This document shows positions 3,076-34,742 of a stretch of DNA of 64,000 nt, piece by piece; position 1 is the stretch's first letter; each line of letters begins with the position of its first letter. Under the pieces are notes generated by a model. It was given only the letters and a program-made list of their open reading frames with translations, had not been told where the DNA came from and searched no databases. The DNA is taken from the NCBI GenBank assembly GCA_947259215.1, contig CAMYLJ010000026.1, positions 1 through 64,000 of the forward strand. Reading direction: 5' to 3'. The position numbers and the translations under genes were made by a program. Source of the DNA: an uncultured delta proteobacterium. Lineage in GTDB: Bacteria; Myxococcota_A; UBA9160; JAFDET01.

Positions 3076-3152
3076 TGGCGCGCCCGGCACGACTCGAACG
3101 TGCGGCCTCCAGGTCCGCAACCTGGCGCTCTATCCAACTGAGCTACGGGCGC
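3076..3152 (-). tRNA. tRNA-Arg (anticodon GCG)
   Basis: 77 nt with encoded CCA. The acceptor stem GCGCCCG/CGGGCGC is perfect, with discriminator G. The anticodon arm is CCAGG-TTGCGGA-CCTGG, so the anticodon is GCG, reading CGC. The T arm is GCACG-TTCGAGT-CGTGC. Most bacteria read CGC with an inosine-modified ACG tRNA, so G34 is less usual. Confidence 0.95.
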
Positions 3153-3197
3153 GTGCAAACGGTCGCCGAAGCTAGCGAATCCCCGCGGCTTGCGAAG

Positions 3198-3288
<91 letters not shown>

Positions 3289-3351
3289 GCGCATGCTTCC
3301 GAGTGCGCCGGCCCGGCCGCCCGGGCGGGCTCGCGGCGCGCATCATTCTTC

Positions 3352-3441
3352 TGGCGGAGAGGGAGGGATTCGAACCCTCGATACCCGTTAAGGTATGCAG
3401 GTTTAGCAAACCTGTGCCTTCAGCCACTCGGCCACCTCTCC
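3352..3441 (-). tRNA. tRNA-Ser (anticodon GCT)
   Basis: 90 nt with encoded CCA. The anticodon arm CAGGT-TTGCTAA-ACCTG gives GCU (reads AGC). It has a long variable arm and the same GGAGAGG acceptor start as the neighbouring serine tRNAs. Confidence 0.95.
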
Positions 3442-3584
3442 GCGAGGGCCCCGAACATAACCCGCGTTCGCGCCGTCCGGGAGGCGTTCCCCGGGACCCG
3501 GATTCCTTTTCAGGCCCGGAGGGTTGCGCCGCCGATGCCGGCTGGCATCCTCGCTCCCGGCGACGACGGTGGGAGGGACGCGGC

Positions 3585-4052
3585 ATGCGGATCGGACGCA
3601 GAAGCGGATGGCGGGTCGGGGCCGGTGTGGGCCTCGCAATCTCGGCGGCGTGCGCCGACGCGCCGGCCGAGGAGGCGCAGGTCGAGGGCGAGCTCGTGTC
3701 GATCCAGGAGCTGCTGGACAGCGCCTGGCTGGTCGAGGAGATCGAGGACCGCGGCTCCGCGGAGGGGGTGCGCTCGACCCTCGGCTTCCGCGTCCAGACG
3801 ATCTACGGCAGCGGCGGCTGCAACCGCTTCACCGGCAAGGCCGGTGAGCGCGAGGGCGTGCTCGAGGTCGGGCCCCTGGCCAGCACCCGGCGCATGTGCG
3901 AGCCGCCCGCGATGGACCAGGAGCAGAGCTACCTCTCGGCCCTGGGTCGCGTGGCGCGCTTCCGGCTCGACCGCGGCCGGGGCCTGCTCTTCGGGCTGGA
4001 TGCCGCGGGCGCCCCGCTGCTGCGGCTCGCGCGGCTCGAGGGCCAGGCCTAG
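3585..4052 (+). CDS. META/HslJ-like domain envelope protein
   Basis: 155 aa from the ATG at 3585, preceded by GGGAGG at 10 nt. Residues 1-25 form a signal peptide ending near a cysteine (ISAAC-A), so it may be a lipoprotein, although the lipobox is weak. The rest resembles the META (DUF306) fold: a DSAWLVEEI opening, the [11 protein letters not shown] segment typical of HslJ, and a STRRMC motif. HslJ-like proteins are small outer-membrane or periplasmic proteins linked to stress and novobiocin resistance in E. coli; the exact role is unknown. It sits on the strand opposite the tRNA genes, between two tRNA-Ser genes, so a long tRNA precursor would run antisense through it. Confidence 0.75.
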
Positions 4053-4073
4053 CGGTTCGCCTTCGCGCGCGGC

Positions 4074-4161
4074 TGGCGGAGAGGGAGGGATTCGAACCCC
4101 CGGACCCTTTCGGGTCTGCGGTTTTCAAGACCGCCGCCTTCGACCGCTCGGCCACCTCTCC
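4074..4161 (-). tRNA. tRNA-Ser (anticodon TGA)
   Basis: 88 nt with encoded CCA. The anticodon arm is GCGGT-CTTGAAA-ACCGC (anticodon UGA, reads UCA), with a long variable arm. This is the most upstream tRNA of the minus-strand cluster, separated from tRNA-Ser(GCT) by the oppositely oriented META gene. Confidence 0.95.
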
Positions 4162-13126: not shown

Positions 13127-15167
<2,041 letters not shown>

Positions 15168-25874: not shown

Positions 25875-27410
25875 TCACTCGGTCAGGGCGAGGCGTTTCA
25901 TCATCTTCTGGAGGGACTGGCGGGGGATGCCGAGCCGCTGGGCGGCCTGGCTCTTGCTGCCGGTCTCGCGGATGGCCTCGCGGATCAGGTGGCGCTTCAG
26001 GTCGTCGACGGCACGGTTCAGGTCCCAGTCCACCGGCAGCGGCGCGGCCTGGCTGGGCTCCGGAGAGGCGCCGCGGATGTGCTCGGACAGCATGTCGGCC
26101 GCGACGGTGTCCGCCTCGCCCGCCAGGGCCACCACGCGCTCGATCTCGTTCTCCAGCTCGCGCACGTTGCCGCTCCACTCGTGGGACACGAAGCGCTCCA
26201 TGGCGGCCTGGGTGAAGCCCCGCATCCGGCGTCCCATGCGCTCGTTGGCCACGTCGAGGAAGTGCTGGGCCAGCATCGGGATGTCCTCGCGCCGCTCCCG
26301 CAGGGGGGGCAGCCCGATCTCCACCACCCGCAGCCGGTAGAAGAGGTCCTCGCGGAAGAGCCCCTCCTGCACCAGGCTGCGCAGGTCGCGGTTCGTGGCC
26401 GCCATGATGCGCACGTCCACCTTGCGCGTGTCGGCGCCGCCCACGGGGCGGATCTCGTTGTCCTGGAGCACCCGCAGCAGCCGCACCTGCATGCCCGGCG
26501 TCATCTCGCCCACCTCGTCCAGGAAGATGGTGCCGCCGTCGCAGATCTCGAACAGGCCCTTCTTGTCCGCGTGGGCGCCGGTGAAGGCGCCGCGCTTGTG
26601 CCCGAAGAGCTCGCTCTCGAGCAGGGTCTCGGGCAGGGCTCCGCAGTTCTGGGCCAGGAAGCGCCGCTTGGCCCGGGCGCCGGCGTAGTGGATGGCCCGG
26701 GCCACCAGGTCCTTTCCGGTGCCGGTCTCGCCGGTGATGAGCACGGTGGCGTCGGTCTCGGCCACCTTCTCCATCACCTCGAAGACACGGTGCATGGCGG
26801 CGCTCTCGCCCAGCAGCTGGTCGAACGCGTAGCGGCGCTCGACTTCGCGGCGCAGGTAGAGGTTCTCGCTCCGCAGCCGGTCGTTGGCCTCCTTCAAGGC
26901 GGCGGCCAGCTGCGTGTTCTCGTGGCTGAGCTCGTACGCCTCGAGGGCGCGCTTCACGTTGAGGCGCAGCTCGTCGGGCTCCCAGGGCTTCGTCACGTAG
27001 CGATAGATGTGTCCCGTGTTGATGGCGCGCACCAGGGAATGGATGTCCGCGTAGCCCGTCAGCATCATGCGGATGGCGCGCGGGTTCTTCTCGATGGCCT
27101 TCTCGAGGAACTCGACGCCGGTCATGCCGGGCATGACCTGGTCCGCGATGATGAGCGCGATCTCCTCGCGCTCCAGGATCTCGAGGCCCTTCGGGCCCGT
27201 GTTCGCCGCGAACACGCGGTAGTCGCCCTCGAGGGTCAGCTCCAGGGACTCGAGGATCGCCTCCTCGTCGTCGACGAGCAGCACGGCGTAGCGCGGGGAT
27301 CCGGAGTCGGGACTCGGGCGGGCGCCCTCGATCCCCGTCTTCGCTCCGGACTGGCTCTCGCCCGCCGCTGCACCCGCGTCGCGGGCGGACCTCTCGTCGG
27401 CGTCACTCAC
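25875..27410 (-). CDS. Sigma-54-dependent response regulator (NtrC family)
   Basis: 511 aa from a GTG at 27410, with TATCCT 7 nt upstream. A 40-residue Ala/Ser-rich lead precedes a receiver domain (LLVDDEEAILESL; phosphoacceptor in IIADQVMPGM; YVTKPW). Next come a coiled coil and the AAA+ domain with GETGTGKD (Walker A), GAFTGA (sigma-54 contact) and FLDEVGEM (Walker B). It ends in a Fis-type HTH (SKSQAAQRLGIPRQSLQKMMKRL). It activates RNA polymerase-sigma-54 at enhancers once phosphorylated. No kinase is adjacent; an orphan soluble kinase gene lies about 5 kb away at 32469. Confidence 0.93.
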   Translation of the reverse strand: MSDADERSARDAGAAAGESQSGAKTGIEGARPSPDSGSPRYAVLLVDDEEAILESLELTLEGDYRVFAANTGPKGLEILEREEIALIIADQVMPGMTGVEFLEKAIEKNPRAIRMMLTGYADIHSLVRAINTGHIYRYVTKPWEPDELRLNVKRALEAYELSHENTQLAAALKEANDRLRSENLYLRREVERRYAFDQLLGESAAMHRVFEVMEKVAETDATVLITGETGTGKDLVARAIHYAGARAKRRFLAQNCGALPETLLESELFGHKRGAFTGAHADKKGLFEICDGGTIFLDEVGEMTPGMQVRLLRVLQDNEIRPVGGADTRKVDVRIMAATNRDLRSLVQEGLFREDLFYRLRVVEIGLPPLRERREDIPMLAQHFLDVANERMGRRMRGFTQAAMERFVSHEWSGNVRELENEIERVVALAGEADTVAADMLSEHIRGASPEPSQAAPLPVDWDLNRAVDDLKRHLIREAIRETGSKSQAAQRLGIPRQSLQKMMKRLALTE

Positions 27411-27502
27411 CGGCGGCAGGATACCGGGGCGACCCGGGCCGGGCAAAGGCGCGAAGGCGGACGCCGGCGGGTGCGGCTGCACCCGCCGGCGTGCCAAGGC
27501 CT

Positions 27503-28024
27503 CTAGGCCTTCTTGCGCCGCGCGGTCTTGCGCCGCGTCGTCTTGCGACGTGCGGGCTTCTTGCGCGCGGCCTTCTTGCGGGTCGTCTTCTTCCGCGCCG
27601 TCTTGCGCCGTGCGGTCTTCTTGCGACCCGTCTTCTTGCGGGCGGTCTTCTTGCGCGCCGTCTTTCGGCGTGCCGTCTTCTTCCGCATCGTCTTGCGCCG
27701 TGCGGTCTTCTTGCGACCCGTCTTCTTGCGCGTCGTCTTCCGCCGTGCCGTCTTCCGGCGAGCGGTCTTCTTGCGCGCCGGCTTCCTGCGCCGGCTGCCG
27801 GCCCGCGCCATCTTGACGCGGGCGACGTGGCCCTTCTTGTCGATGAAGTAGAGGAACCCGTCCTCCCGCTTCACCCCGGCCTTCGTCACCACCTGGGGCT
27901 TGCCCTTCTGCTTTCGACCTCCGCCGCGCGCCATGCGGGCGCGGCTGACGTTTCCGCGCTTGTCGAGGTAGTAGAGCCACCCCTTCTCGCGGCGAACGCC
28001 CGTCTTTGCGACGACAGTTGCCAT
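27503..28024 (-). CDS. Histone H1-like protein with two N-terminal repeat modules and a K/R-T tail
   Basis: 173 aa with a strong Shine-Dalgarno sequence (GAAGGAG, 6 nt before the ATG). Residues 1-75 hold two copies of a module: GVRREKGWLYYLDKRGNVSR and GVKREDGFLYFIDKKGHVAR, each followed by a basic MARxG stretch. Residues about 80-173 are a low-complexity tail of five-residue steps such as ARKKT and ARRKT. The tail resembles bacterial H1-like nucleoid proteins (Hc1/Hc2) and should bind DNA without sequence preference. The N-terminal module is not one I can name; it may mediate dimerisation or target recognition. It has its own promoter with a consensus -35. Confidence 0.8.
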   Translation of the reverse strand: MATVVAKTGVRREKGWLYYLDKRGNVSRARMARGGGRKQKGKPQVVTKAGVKREDGFLYFIDKKGHVARVKMARAGSRRRKPARKKTARRKTARRKTTRKKTGRKKTARRKTMRKKTARRKTARKKTARKKTGRKKTARRKTARKKTTRKKAARKKPARRKTTRRKTARRKKA

Positions 28025-28101
28025 GGTCGTCTCCTTCGGTTGTTGAACATACGCGGAGGAGATCCCGTCGGTGGGTGGGTGCCTCGACGGGGGACAGCCA
28101 G

Positions 28102-28200: not shown

Positions 28201-29163
28201 TCAGGCGCCCGCCAGGGCCTCCACCCGCTCGATCACCGGGGTGCAGAGGTTCTCGCCGGCGAGCCGGCCGGCCTCCTGGATCCCCGTCGGGGAGGTGACG
28301 TTGATCTCGGTCAGGCGCCCCCCGATCACGTCGATCCCGACGAAGAAGAAGCCCTCCGCGCGCAGGCGCGGGGCGATGCGCTCGACGATCCGACGGTCGT
28401 CGGCGTCCAGGTCCGTCGGGGCCGCGCGGCCCCCCACGTGGAGGTTGGCCCGCACCTCTCCCTCGGCGGGCACCCGCAGCAGGCTCCCCAGGACCTCGCC
28501 CTCGAGCAGCAGGATGCGCTTGTCGCCCTTCCGGACGTCGGGGAGGTAGCGCTGGGCCATGGTCCAGCGGGTCCCGAAGGCCGTGGCCTGCTCCAGGATC
28601 GAGAACAGGTTCCGATCGTCGTTGCGGACGTGGAAGATCCCCTCGCCCCCCTTGCCCTCGAGGGGCTTCACGATCATCTCGCCCCCGCAGCCGGCCATGA
28701 AGTCGATCAGCTCCGGGATGTGACGGGTGACCCGGGTCTCCGCCATGAGATCCGGGAAGTTCAGAGCGTAGAGCTTCTCGTTGGCCGCCAGGATGCTCTC
28801 GGGCTGGTTCAGGACCCGGGCCTTGCGGCAGAGGGACAGGATCTGGGTGGCCCGGGTGTACTCCTCGTCCACGGGCGGGTCCTTGCGCTGGAAGACCACG
28901 TCCGTGTCGTCGTCGAGCACCCTCAGGTGGGTTTCGCCCGGGTCCACGTGGCGGCCTGGCTCCCGGCGCAGGGTCACTGCCCGCAGGCGCCCGAGCGGCC
29001 GGCCCGCGTCGACTCCCAGGTCGCCCTGCTCGGCCGTGAAGATGCGGTGCCCCCGCTCCTGGGCTTCCAGCATCAGGGCGAAGGTGGTGTCGGCCTCGAT
29101 GTCGACGGACTCGATCGGGTCCATGACGAACGCCAGGCGCAGGGAGCGGGAGGGGGTGCTCAA
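28201..29163 (-). CDS. gshB: Glutathione synthetase
   Basis: 320 aa, the usual length. Signatures are VMDPIESVDIEADTTFALMLEAQ at the start, FQRKDPPVDEEY, NQPESILAANEKLYALNFPDL, VKPLEGKGGEGIF (ATP-grasp loop) and FFVGIDVIGGRLTEINVTSPTGIQE at the end. It joins gamma-glutamylcysteine and glycine with ATP in the cytoplasm. The start is a TTG at 29163 preceded by GGAGG at 4 nt; the next ATG would cut into the conserved N-terminus. It is divergent from the PBP gene. gshA is not in the window. Confidence 0.93.
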   Translation of the reverse strand: MSTPSRSLRLAFVMDPIESVDIEADTTFALMLEAQERGHRIFTAEQGDLGVDAGRPLGRLRAVTLRREPGRHVDPGETHLRVLDDDTDVVFQRKDPPVDEEYTRATQILSLCRKARVLNQPESILAANEKLYALNFPDLMAETRVTRHIPELIDFMAGCGGEMIVKPLEGKGGEGIFHVRNDDRNLFSILEQATAFGTRWTMAQRYLPDVRKGDKRILLLEGEVLGSLLRVPAEGEVRANLHVGGRAAPTDLDADDRRIVERIAPRLRAEGFFFVGIDVIGGRLTEINVTSPTGIQEAGRLAGENLCTPVIERVEALAGA

Positions 29164-33656: not shown

Positions 33657-34742
33657 GAAGTTCACTTCTTTCCCACAGAGTGGAGACGGGCGGGTCGAGC
33701 GACTCTTCGGGCTGAGGTAGGCTGAGGGCACCCCGGTTGGTCCTGCGGGAGATGGCCGATGCCGCGCGGGCCGCGGCTCGATGCGCCGAGCTGCCTTCAC
33801 CACGTGATGCTGCGCGGGATCGAGCGCCGTCGCATCTTCTACGACGACCGCGACCGACGAGACCTGCTGGAGCGCCTGAGTCGGATCCTCCCGGAAGCGG
33901 GGATGCCCTGCTTCGCCTGGACGCTGATGCCGAATCACGTGCATCTCGTCCTGCGCACCGGAGCGATCCCGCTCGCGCGGGTGATGGCGCGCGTGAACAC
34001 GGGTTACGCTCTTGCCTTCAATCTGCGTCACGCACGGGTCGGGCATCTTTTCCAGGGCCGCTACAAGTCGATCCTCGTCGAGCAGGAGGCGCAGCTCCTC
34101 GCGCTGGTGCGTTACGTGCATCTGAACCCGCTGCGCGCGGGACTCGTGGATTCTCTCGAGGCGCTCGGCGGCCATCGCTGGACCGGCCATGCCACGCTGC
34201 TGGGTCGCGGCGAGGCCTCCTTCCAGGACGCGCAGGCGATCCTGGAGCGGTTCGGGAGAACCAGAGCCGAGGCGCGCCGCCGGTTGCTCGAGTGGATGCA
34301 GGCCGAGATCGATCCGGAGGTCGACGCGCCGGAGCGGGCGCTGGCGCCAGAGGCCGAGTGGTGCGGCGCCCCAGGCGCGCGAAGGGAAGGCGCAGCGCCG
34401 ACCGAGCGCTCACCGCAGCCGGGGCGCGCCCGCGCGAGGACCGCGCCCTCGGTGGAGCCGGAGCGGAACCTGCCGGCCCTGATCGCGCGAGTCTGCGCGG
34501 AGCGCGATGTGCCGGAGGGGGAGCTCCTGGGAGGCGCGCGGACCCGGGTGGTGGCCGACGCACGGGCAGAGATCGTATACCGCGCCTGCGTCGAGCTCGG
34601 GCTTCCGGGCGTCGCCGTCGCAAGAGCCCTCGGCCTCTCGAAAGCCGGCGTGAGCCAAGCCCGTGCCCGAGGGCGGGCTCTGCTCGCTTCGGAGCGCGAG
34701 GGGGCCTGCCGAAGACAACTGAACTTCTGAACCAACGTCCCC
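33642..34742 (+). mobile_element. RAYT (IS200-like HUH transposase) element with inverted ends
   Basis: The left end at 33642 begins GGGGACGTTGGTTAAGAAGT, and the right end at 34742 is its reverse complement with one difference over 23 bases. The left end is followed by a small subterminal hairpin (AAGAAG-TTCA-CTTCTT). The element spans about 1.1 kb and carries one gene, a REP-associated tyrosine transposase. The arms of the 63-bp palindrome at 25812-25874 share these ends. It lies between a kinase gene and a TPR lipoprotein gene. Confidence 0.85.
33759..34730 (+). CDS. REP-associated tyrosine transposase (RAYT) with C-terminal DnaA-like HTH
   Basis: 323 aa. HUH motif HVH is at residues 60-62 (MPNHVHLVL). 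The likely catalytic tyrosine is Tyr83 in TGYALAFN, followed by the family signature GHLFQGRYKSI and RYVHLNPLRAGLV. Residues about 225-310 form a second domain with VVADARAEIVYRACVELG and GVAVARALGLSKAGVSQA, which resembles the DnaA C-terminal helix-turn-helix often seen in long RAYTs. RAYTs cleave single-stranded DNA at their cognate palindromes. The last residues (QLNF and stop) are read from the right terminal repeat. Confidence 0.9.
   Translation: MPRGPRLDAPSCLHHVMLRGIERRRIFYDDRDRRDLLERLSRILPEAGMPCFAWTLMPNHVHLVLRTGAIPLARVMARVNTGYALAFNLRHARVGHLFQGRYKSILVEQEAQLLALVRYVHLNPLRAGLVDSLEALGGHRWTGHATLLGRGEASFQDAQAILERFGRTRAEARRRLLEWMQAEIDPEVDAPERALAPEAEWCGAPGARREGAAPTERSPQPGRARARTAPSVEPERNLPALIARVCAERDVPEGELLGGARTRVVADARAEIVYRACVELGLPGVAVARALGLSKAGVSQARARGRALLASEREGACRRQLNF

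Follow-up and report, generated by a model that had tools for sequence, protein, structure and literature searches.

A tandem pair of small basic modules, predicted to be all-beta and apparently unnamed, shared by uncultured Myxococcota, other bacteria, DPANN archaea, and phages

In the 64,000-nucleotide stretch from an uncultured delta proteobacterium analyzed here (the window), a short gene encodes a small, strongly basic protein of 173 aa in which two copies of a module of about 37 residues precede a long tail rich in lysine and arginine. This module, apparently an unnamed domain judging from Pfam, NCBIfam, PHROGs, PADLOC, and the PDB, is near-core in two phyla, one bacterial (96 of 99 genomes) and one archaeal (149 of 193). 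The proteins that contain it probably bind nucleic acids and may have a structural role.

The gene, its two-module head, and its tail

The gene starts with an ATG, according to the list of open reading frames, and comprises the following features:

27503-28024, minus strand: whole gene, 173 aa (open reading frame; 59 of 97 genomes keep the head, and codon changes point to purifying selection)
28031-28036, minus strand: AAGGAG, a ribosome-binding-site-like hexamer 6 bases 5' of the ATG (from the sequence)
27914-28024, minus strand: module 1, residues 1-37, with predicted strands at residues 3-6, 16-20, and 26-30 (self-alignment; AlphaFold2 with 83 sequences)
27797-27895, minus strand: module 2, residues 44-76, with predicted strands at residues 44-47, 57-61, and 67-71 (self-alignment; AlphaFold2)
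27506-27796, minus strand: K/R/T/A tail, residues 77-173 (97 aa), with a period of five residues (composition, lag analysis, and TRF)

A previous sequence-only reading of this gene had described two copies of a (W/F)LY(Y/F)xDK(R/K)GxV module, too conserved to be random low complexity, followed by a five-residue periodic K/R/T tail, and all three statements hold. The motif copies, WLYYLDKRGNV and FLYFIDKKGHV, correspond to residues 16-26 and 57-67, and the alignment of module 1 with module 2 yields 19 identities over 32 aligned residues, with a BLOSUM62 score of 109 versus a maximum of 45 among 5000 shuffles. Comparison of the head codons with those of three relatives of the same family revealed 18 synonymous changes in each case versus 6, 6, and 9 non-synonymous ones, which indicates that the head is a selected protein, evolving under purifying selection. 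Random low complexity was rejected because of this selection and the conservation of the head across phyla.

Lys and Arg make up 61% of residues 77-173, which contain neither Asp nor Glu. The tail matches itself at 70% of positions with a lag of 5 and at 68% with a lag of 10 (0-25% with lags of 2-4 and 6-9), and TRF also found a 15-base repeat unit in its DNA. This tail, presumably disordered, is the ordinary part of the protein, in the style of Hc2 or AlgP; it is the module that stands out.

Predicted structure and searches for known domains

Structure prediction, suggested earlier as a check on the module, returned a confident six-strand model of the head. Using 83 diverse sequences, AlphaFold2 reached a pLDDT of 89.7 and a pTM of 0.74 (five models, 85.5-89.7); using 19 close sequences, the pLDDT was 80.9, with the five models going down to 45.5. 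In the 83-sequence model each module has three strands and helices of at least four residues are absent, so the head is confidently predicted to be all-beta. Foldseek searches of the PDB and BFVD returned no match to this model at an E-value of 0.001. The best hit of VIA-align had a Z-score of 2.6 (rmsd 6.8, 70 aligned residues), in a noise-level range of 2.0-2.6 that includes small heat-shock, ribosomal-entry, fishelectin, and BamB chains. This absence of fold matches would be no proof of a new fold, as such searches struggle with short beta proteins. A hairpin resembling a propeller blade was also weighed and is not supported. The fishelectin and BamB chains align with the model at noise-level Z-scores of 2.0-2.1, and Foldseek found nothing at the E-value mentioned above.

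The sequence-only reading had also suggested profile searches, and had named a match of the module to a known, unrelated domain as one result that would speak against it; residues 1-76 gave no convincing match to a known domain. Among 41 members, Pfam matches were weak and scattered (the best were HRCT1, E-value 0.0008; DotY and GldM_2nd, 0.0016; and DUF5050, 0.008), and every match shown for the window member falls under the curated cut-offs. The choline-binding repeat (PF01473) was discarded, with a best E-value of 0.2 in one of the 41 members. NCBIfam offered no convincing match to the module, PADLOC none to the window protein, and the best E-value of a PDB sequence search was only 0.26. 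The best PHROGs entry, phrog_9154 (4e-5), is matched by 26 of the 41 members and is itself of unknown function. A search of the open-licence literature, covering titles, abstract starts, and motif words in full texts, found no description of the module, although a COG/arCOG or InterPro number for it may exist.

Distribution of the module

The module was detected, in one copy each, in 59 of 97 related genomes (including that of the window), and in 73 of 377 genomes of the same phylum, in other classes of which it takes a diverged form with a KKAAPAKK-type tail. Two short exact patterns, run against one genome per species (84,980 species), led to 188 confirmed loci, the best 80 of which were examined. 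According to their record titles, these 80 loci belong to Myxococcota/Deltaproteobacteria, Bdellovibrionales, Elusimicrobia, Omnitrophica, and Auribacterota and, unexpectedly, also to Woesearchaeota and other DPANN archaea. Searches of the phyla of four chosen loci found the module in 149 of 193 genomes of the phylum with Woesearchaeota (L060), 96 of 99 of that with Elusimicrobia (L095), 20 of 144 of that with Bdellovibrionales (from a Bdellovibrionaceae locus, L064), and 31 of 78 of that with Omnitrophica (L076). The archaeal set looks genuinely archaeal because 147 of its 193 genomes hold a match to PF00808. The sequence-only reading had named absence of the module from all homologues as another result that would speak against it; this is not the case, the module being conserved there.

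Genomes usually encode a single copy, as in 94 of the 96 carriers of the Elusimicrobia phylum, and over a dozen archaeal carriers show two or three matches. In IMG/VR, 11 confirmed relatives were found on viral contigs; they have one or two modules and lack a K/R tail. A tblastn of PLSDB plasmids and GenBank phages, with one query each (the window head; an Elusimicrobia member), found none.

Tailed, tail-less, and fused forms

Among the best 80 loci, 42 are from outside Myxococcota, as judged by record title or, for L054, L057, L063, L069, L070, L074, and L083, by gene neighborhood or matching place. In 34 of them the protein has 73-92 aa, that is, two modules and little else, and the rest are longer. 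The sequence-only reading had stressed the fusion with a tail, but what is conserved is the pair of modules. Four tail-less examples have a pI of 10.2-11.3 and a net charge of +8.5 to +17.5. In two archaea the protein is a single module, 39-40 aa long (L140 and L141), and another two archaeal proteins consist of a single module and a short basic end (L136 and L139).

Tails were defined as at least 25 residues with at least 35% K+R and were counted in 119 de-duplicated two-module rows, fusions included. They are present in 45 of the 48 rows of Myxococcota, 10 of the 35 of archaea, one of the 12 of Bdellovibrionota, and none of the other 24. The module tree of these rows has poor resolution, with 58 of its 115 inner branches open. 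On it, the tail requires at least 10 changes of state, in which gain and loss appear indistinguishable, and the division between archaea and bacteria at least eight. The tail counts and changes therefore define the head as the conserved part and the tail as an accessory that has come or gone repeatedly. Transfer of the module between the two domains of life is likely, and the variation of the tail across lineages reads as if affinity had been adjusted time and again.

The module is also joined to other domains. Pfam, run on ten module-bearing frames, confirmed fusions to HIT (L125 and L127), nitroreductase (L129 and L131), TIR (L109), and Ig-type domains (L105), and gave no match in L130 and L132. 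Other parts were read from the sequence only: a HIT domain in L128; cysteines of the zinc-ribbon kind in L133-L135, with a match to PF17915 below the cut-off in L133; coiled coils in both L126 and L130; a SAP-like segment in L109, where Pfam gave no SAP; and the location of the four L105 modules on the cytosolic side. In the 431-aa Myxococcota frame at L109:1843-3135 (plus strand), two modules lie between the SAP-like N-terminus and a TIR domain that is ThsB-like by PADLOC (7e-26); this is possibly a nucleic-acid-sensing defense protein. The 1010-aa DPANN membrane-type protein at L105:2939-5968 (minus strand) carries Ig-type domains and four modules at the C-terminus, and is perhaps a membrane tether. 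One or two C-terminal modules are found in archaeal enzymes or zinc-ribbon-like small proteins (L125, L127, L128, L129, L131, and L133-L135). Finally, in the archaeal frames L106:1641-2271 (plus strand) and L132:1575-2108 (minus strand), two modules are followed by a C-terminal part of about 100 residues that is similar in both.

Gene neighborhood and absence from a related family

The window gene lies between two genes encoded on the same strand:

28201-29163, minus strand: upstream neighbor, glutathione synthetase (PF02955, 5e-63; PF02951, 6e-33)
25875-27422 (start approximate), minus strand: downstream neighbor, sigma-54 response regulator (PF00158, 3e-70; PF00072, 2e-18)

A gene for a penicillin-binding protein is found beyond these neighbors, in divergent orientation. 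Clustering of neighboring ORFs was coarse and, in high-GC loci, the clusters include antisense shadow frames, for which reason the synteny in Myxococcota was established by targeted tblastn. Glutathione synthetase, the sigma-54 regulator, and the penicillin-binding protein were thus located at 34, 31, and 30 of the best 80 loci, respectively, some loci being too short. No operon partner conserved across phyla was seen in the coarse clustering; neighbors differ between phyla and therefore offer no operon clue. Elsewhere in the window there are a 32-base unit in two perfect tandem copies (14636-14700), a gene of the IS200-like Y1 transposase family, perhaps REP-associated (33759-34730, plus strand; PF01797, 3e-11), and four clustered tRNA genes, Arg(gcg) and Ser (gga, gct, and tga), at 3076-4161 on the minus strand.

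In a family of the same order (f5), the module is present in only two of 30 genomes. Of 38 module-less genomes, 13 were sampled, 12 had a glutathione synthetase match, and 11 were examined at the syntenic site (10 from f5 and one from f8; L161-L171). The sigma-54 regulator was found in the stretch near glutathione synthetase in nine of these 11. The gap between both genes, measured between aligned ends, is below 120 bases in eight of the nine and about 416 in the other, versus about 860 in the window, so that those eight have no room for the gene. In the module-less stretches, no reading frame was seen to reach nine lysines within 40 residues. The rare presence, the closed-up site, and the lack of a lysine-rich frame indicate that the gene is dispensable in f5; it is therefore not indispensable.

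Regarding phages, the module gene of contig L151 (4968-5234, plus strand) is located directly after a DNA primase gene and before a helicase gene, that of L156 lies among glycosyltransferases, and the tested neighbors of L152 matched nothing. A DNA-replication neighborhood is hence found in one of the three phage contigs examined.

Relationship with HU and histones

HU is encoded whether or not the module is present (96 of 97 related genomes and 97 of 99 of the Elusimicrobia phylum), f5 has the usual one or two copies, and the genome of the window holds two separate HU genes. In the archaea, module and histones are independent (117/32/30/14; Fisher p 0.16). Replacement of either by the module protein is therefore not supported: it coexists with both, with no anticorrelation.

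Possible functions

The earlier proposal of a new type of DNA-compaction or nucleoid protein is plausible on the basis of charge, size, distribution, and tail. We give an even chance to a small, non-enzymatic, nucleoid-type structural protein that would bind nucleic acids nonspecifically, DNA rather than RNA, and condense them. Two basic three-strand beta modules of about 37 residues would form a compact head in contact with the nucleic acid, and one head may pair with another. Where it is present, in Myxococcota and part of the archaea, the pentameric K/R tail would provide extra nonspecific binding to polyanions, so that the protein could bridge or condense DNA, as tails are thought to act in Hc2 or in mycobacterial MDP1. 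This proposal is favored by the basicity of the tail-less head, the very small size, the low copy number, the near-core status in two phyla, the recurrence of basic tails, the acid-free K/R composition and Hc2-like pentameric period of the window tail, the stand-alone common form with no enzyme domain, and the primase/helicase neighborhood in L151. Against it count the clean absence from f5, the presence of HU and histones alongside the module, the fusions to HIT, nitroreductase, and a membrane protein, which do not suggest chromatin, and the fact that only one of three phage neighborhoods concerns replication.

The small size, basicity, mostly single copy, and near-core presence in two phyla are also what would be expected of a protein that binds RNA, most likely a lineage-specific ribosome- or rRNA-associated protein whose tail would bind rRNA in the way that extensions of ribosomal proteins do. 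Several ribosomal entries do appear in VIA-align, at noise-level Z-scores of 2.1-2.4. However, no ribosomal gene context stood out in the coarse ORF clustering, phage copies exist, and a tail repeatedly lost or gained, together with patchy presence within an order, would be unusual for a part of the ribosome; we regard this role as clearly less probable than the nucleoid one. The same probability is assigned to a protein-protein or self-association adaptor, in which the tail alone would bind nucleic acid and the head would assemble tails or tether fused enzymes. The occurrence of modules on unrelated domains (HIT, nitroreductase, TIR, and an Ig-type membrane protein) speaks for such an adaptor, but most members lack a long tail or fused domain and are nevertheless strongly basic, and the stand-alone module of 39 aa (L140) is small for that task. 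A role in organizing polyphosphate or other storage granules, as in AlgP, is very improbable: the window tail is basic and repetitive, similar to the H1-like KPAA tail described in PMC9239181, but the likeness is confined to a tail that most module-keeping lineages lack, and the same text gives AlgP a putatively alpha-helical N-terminal domain, versus the predicted all-beta head here.

Returning to the nucleoid-type binder, a broader proposal is more tentative, and we hold it to be somewhat less probable than its opposite. The module would be an unnamed nucleic-acid-binding domain of about 37 residues common to DPANN archaea, Elusimicrobiota, Omnitrophota, Bdellovibrionota, Myxococcota, and phages. 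It would found a family of small chromatin proteins that spans the two domains of life and is near-core in phyla whose genomes are reduced, and would also serve as the DNA- or RNA-recognizing part of TIR, HIT, zinc-ribbon-like, and membrane proteins. Chromosome packaging is poorly known in DPANN archaea and in deep uncultured bacterial lineages. This short, usually single-copy protein, for which the family libraries searched gave no convincing match, occurs in 96 of 99 genomes of one phylum and 149 of 193 of a DPANN phylum, and its size allows direct synthesis and testing. At 39 aa, the stand-alone form would be unusually small for a domain, and a conserved head whose tail comes and goes amounts to a natural experiment in the contribution of basic tails.

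Comparison with known systems

Sso7d and Cren7 are small basic beta proteins of archaea, neither of them known as a tandem pair. They resemble the head in size, basicity, and the all-beta build predicted for it, an analogy of the "works like" kind; both are absent from the PDB sequence and Foldseek results, which is weak evidence. A histone fold was discarded, as the protein has no PF00808 match and the confident model shows six strands and lacks any helix of at least four residues.

Lysine-rich pentameric repeats, as described for Hc2 in PMC2848022, are present in the window protein (lag-5 self-match of 70%, K+R of 61%). With Hc2 (HctB, PF07382) and the H1-like family NF038053 it shares a basic, repetitive K/R tail of pentameric units and a similar total length. 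In contrast, it misses the cut-offs of both families (15.5 versus 40 bits for PF07382 and 24 versus 80 bits for NF038053), and the matches are confined to the tail (residues 66-171 and 80-171, respectively), leaving the two-module head with no counterpart.

AlgP and PhaF from Pseudomonas, as portrayed in PMC9239181, also combine a small N-terminal domain with long H1-like basic C-terminal repeats. Those of AlgP, a protein required for the even spacing of polyphosphate granules, are described there as disordered. The differences lie in the head, putatively alpha-helical in AlgP and predicted to be all-beta here, and in the repeat, KPAA versus a five-residue unit. Mycobacterial MDP1/HupB is, according to PMC5974015, an HU protein with a disordered C-terminal tail. 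The window protein holds no HU domain (PF00216 is not among its Pfam matches at E-values up to 10), but both share the same architecture, a conserved folded head, predicted in the window protein, followed by a basic tail that is presumably disordered in it as well.
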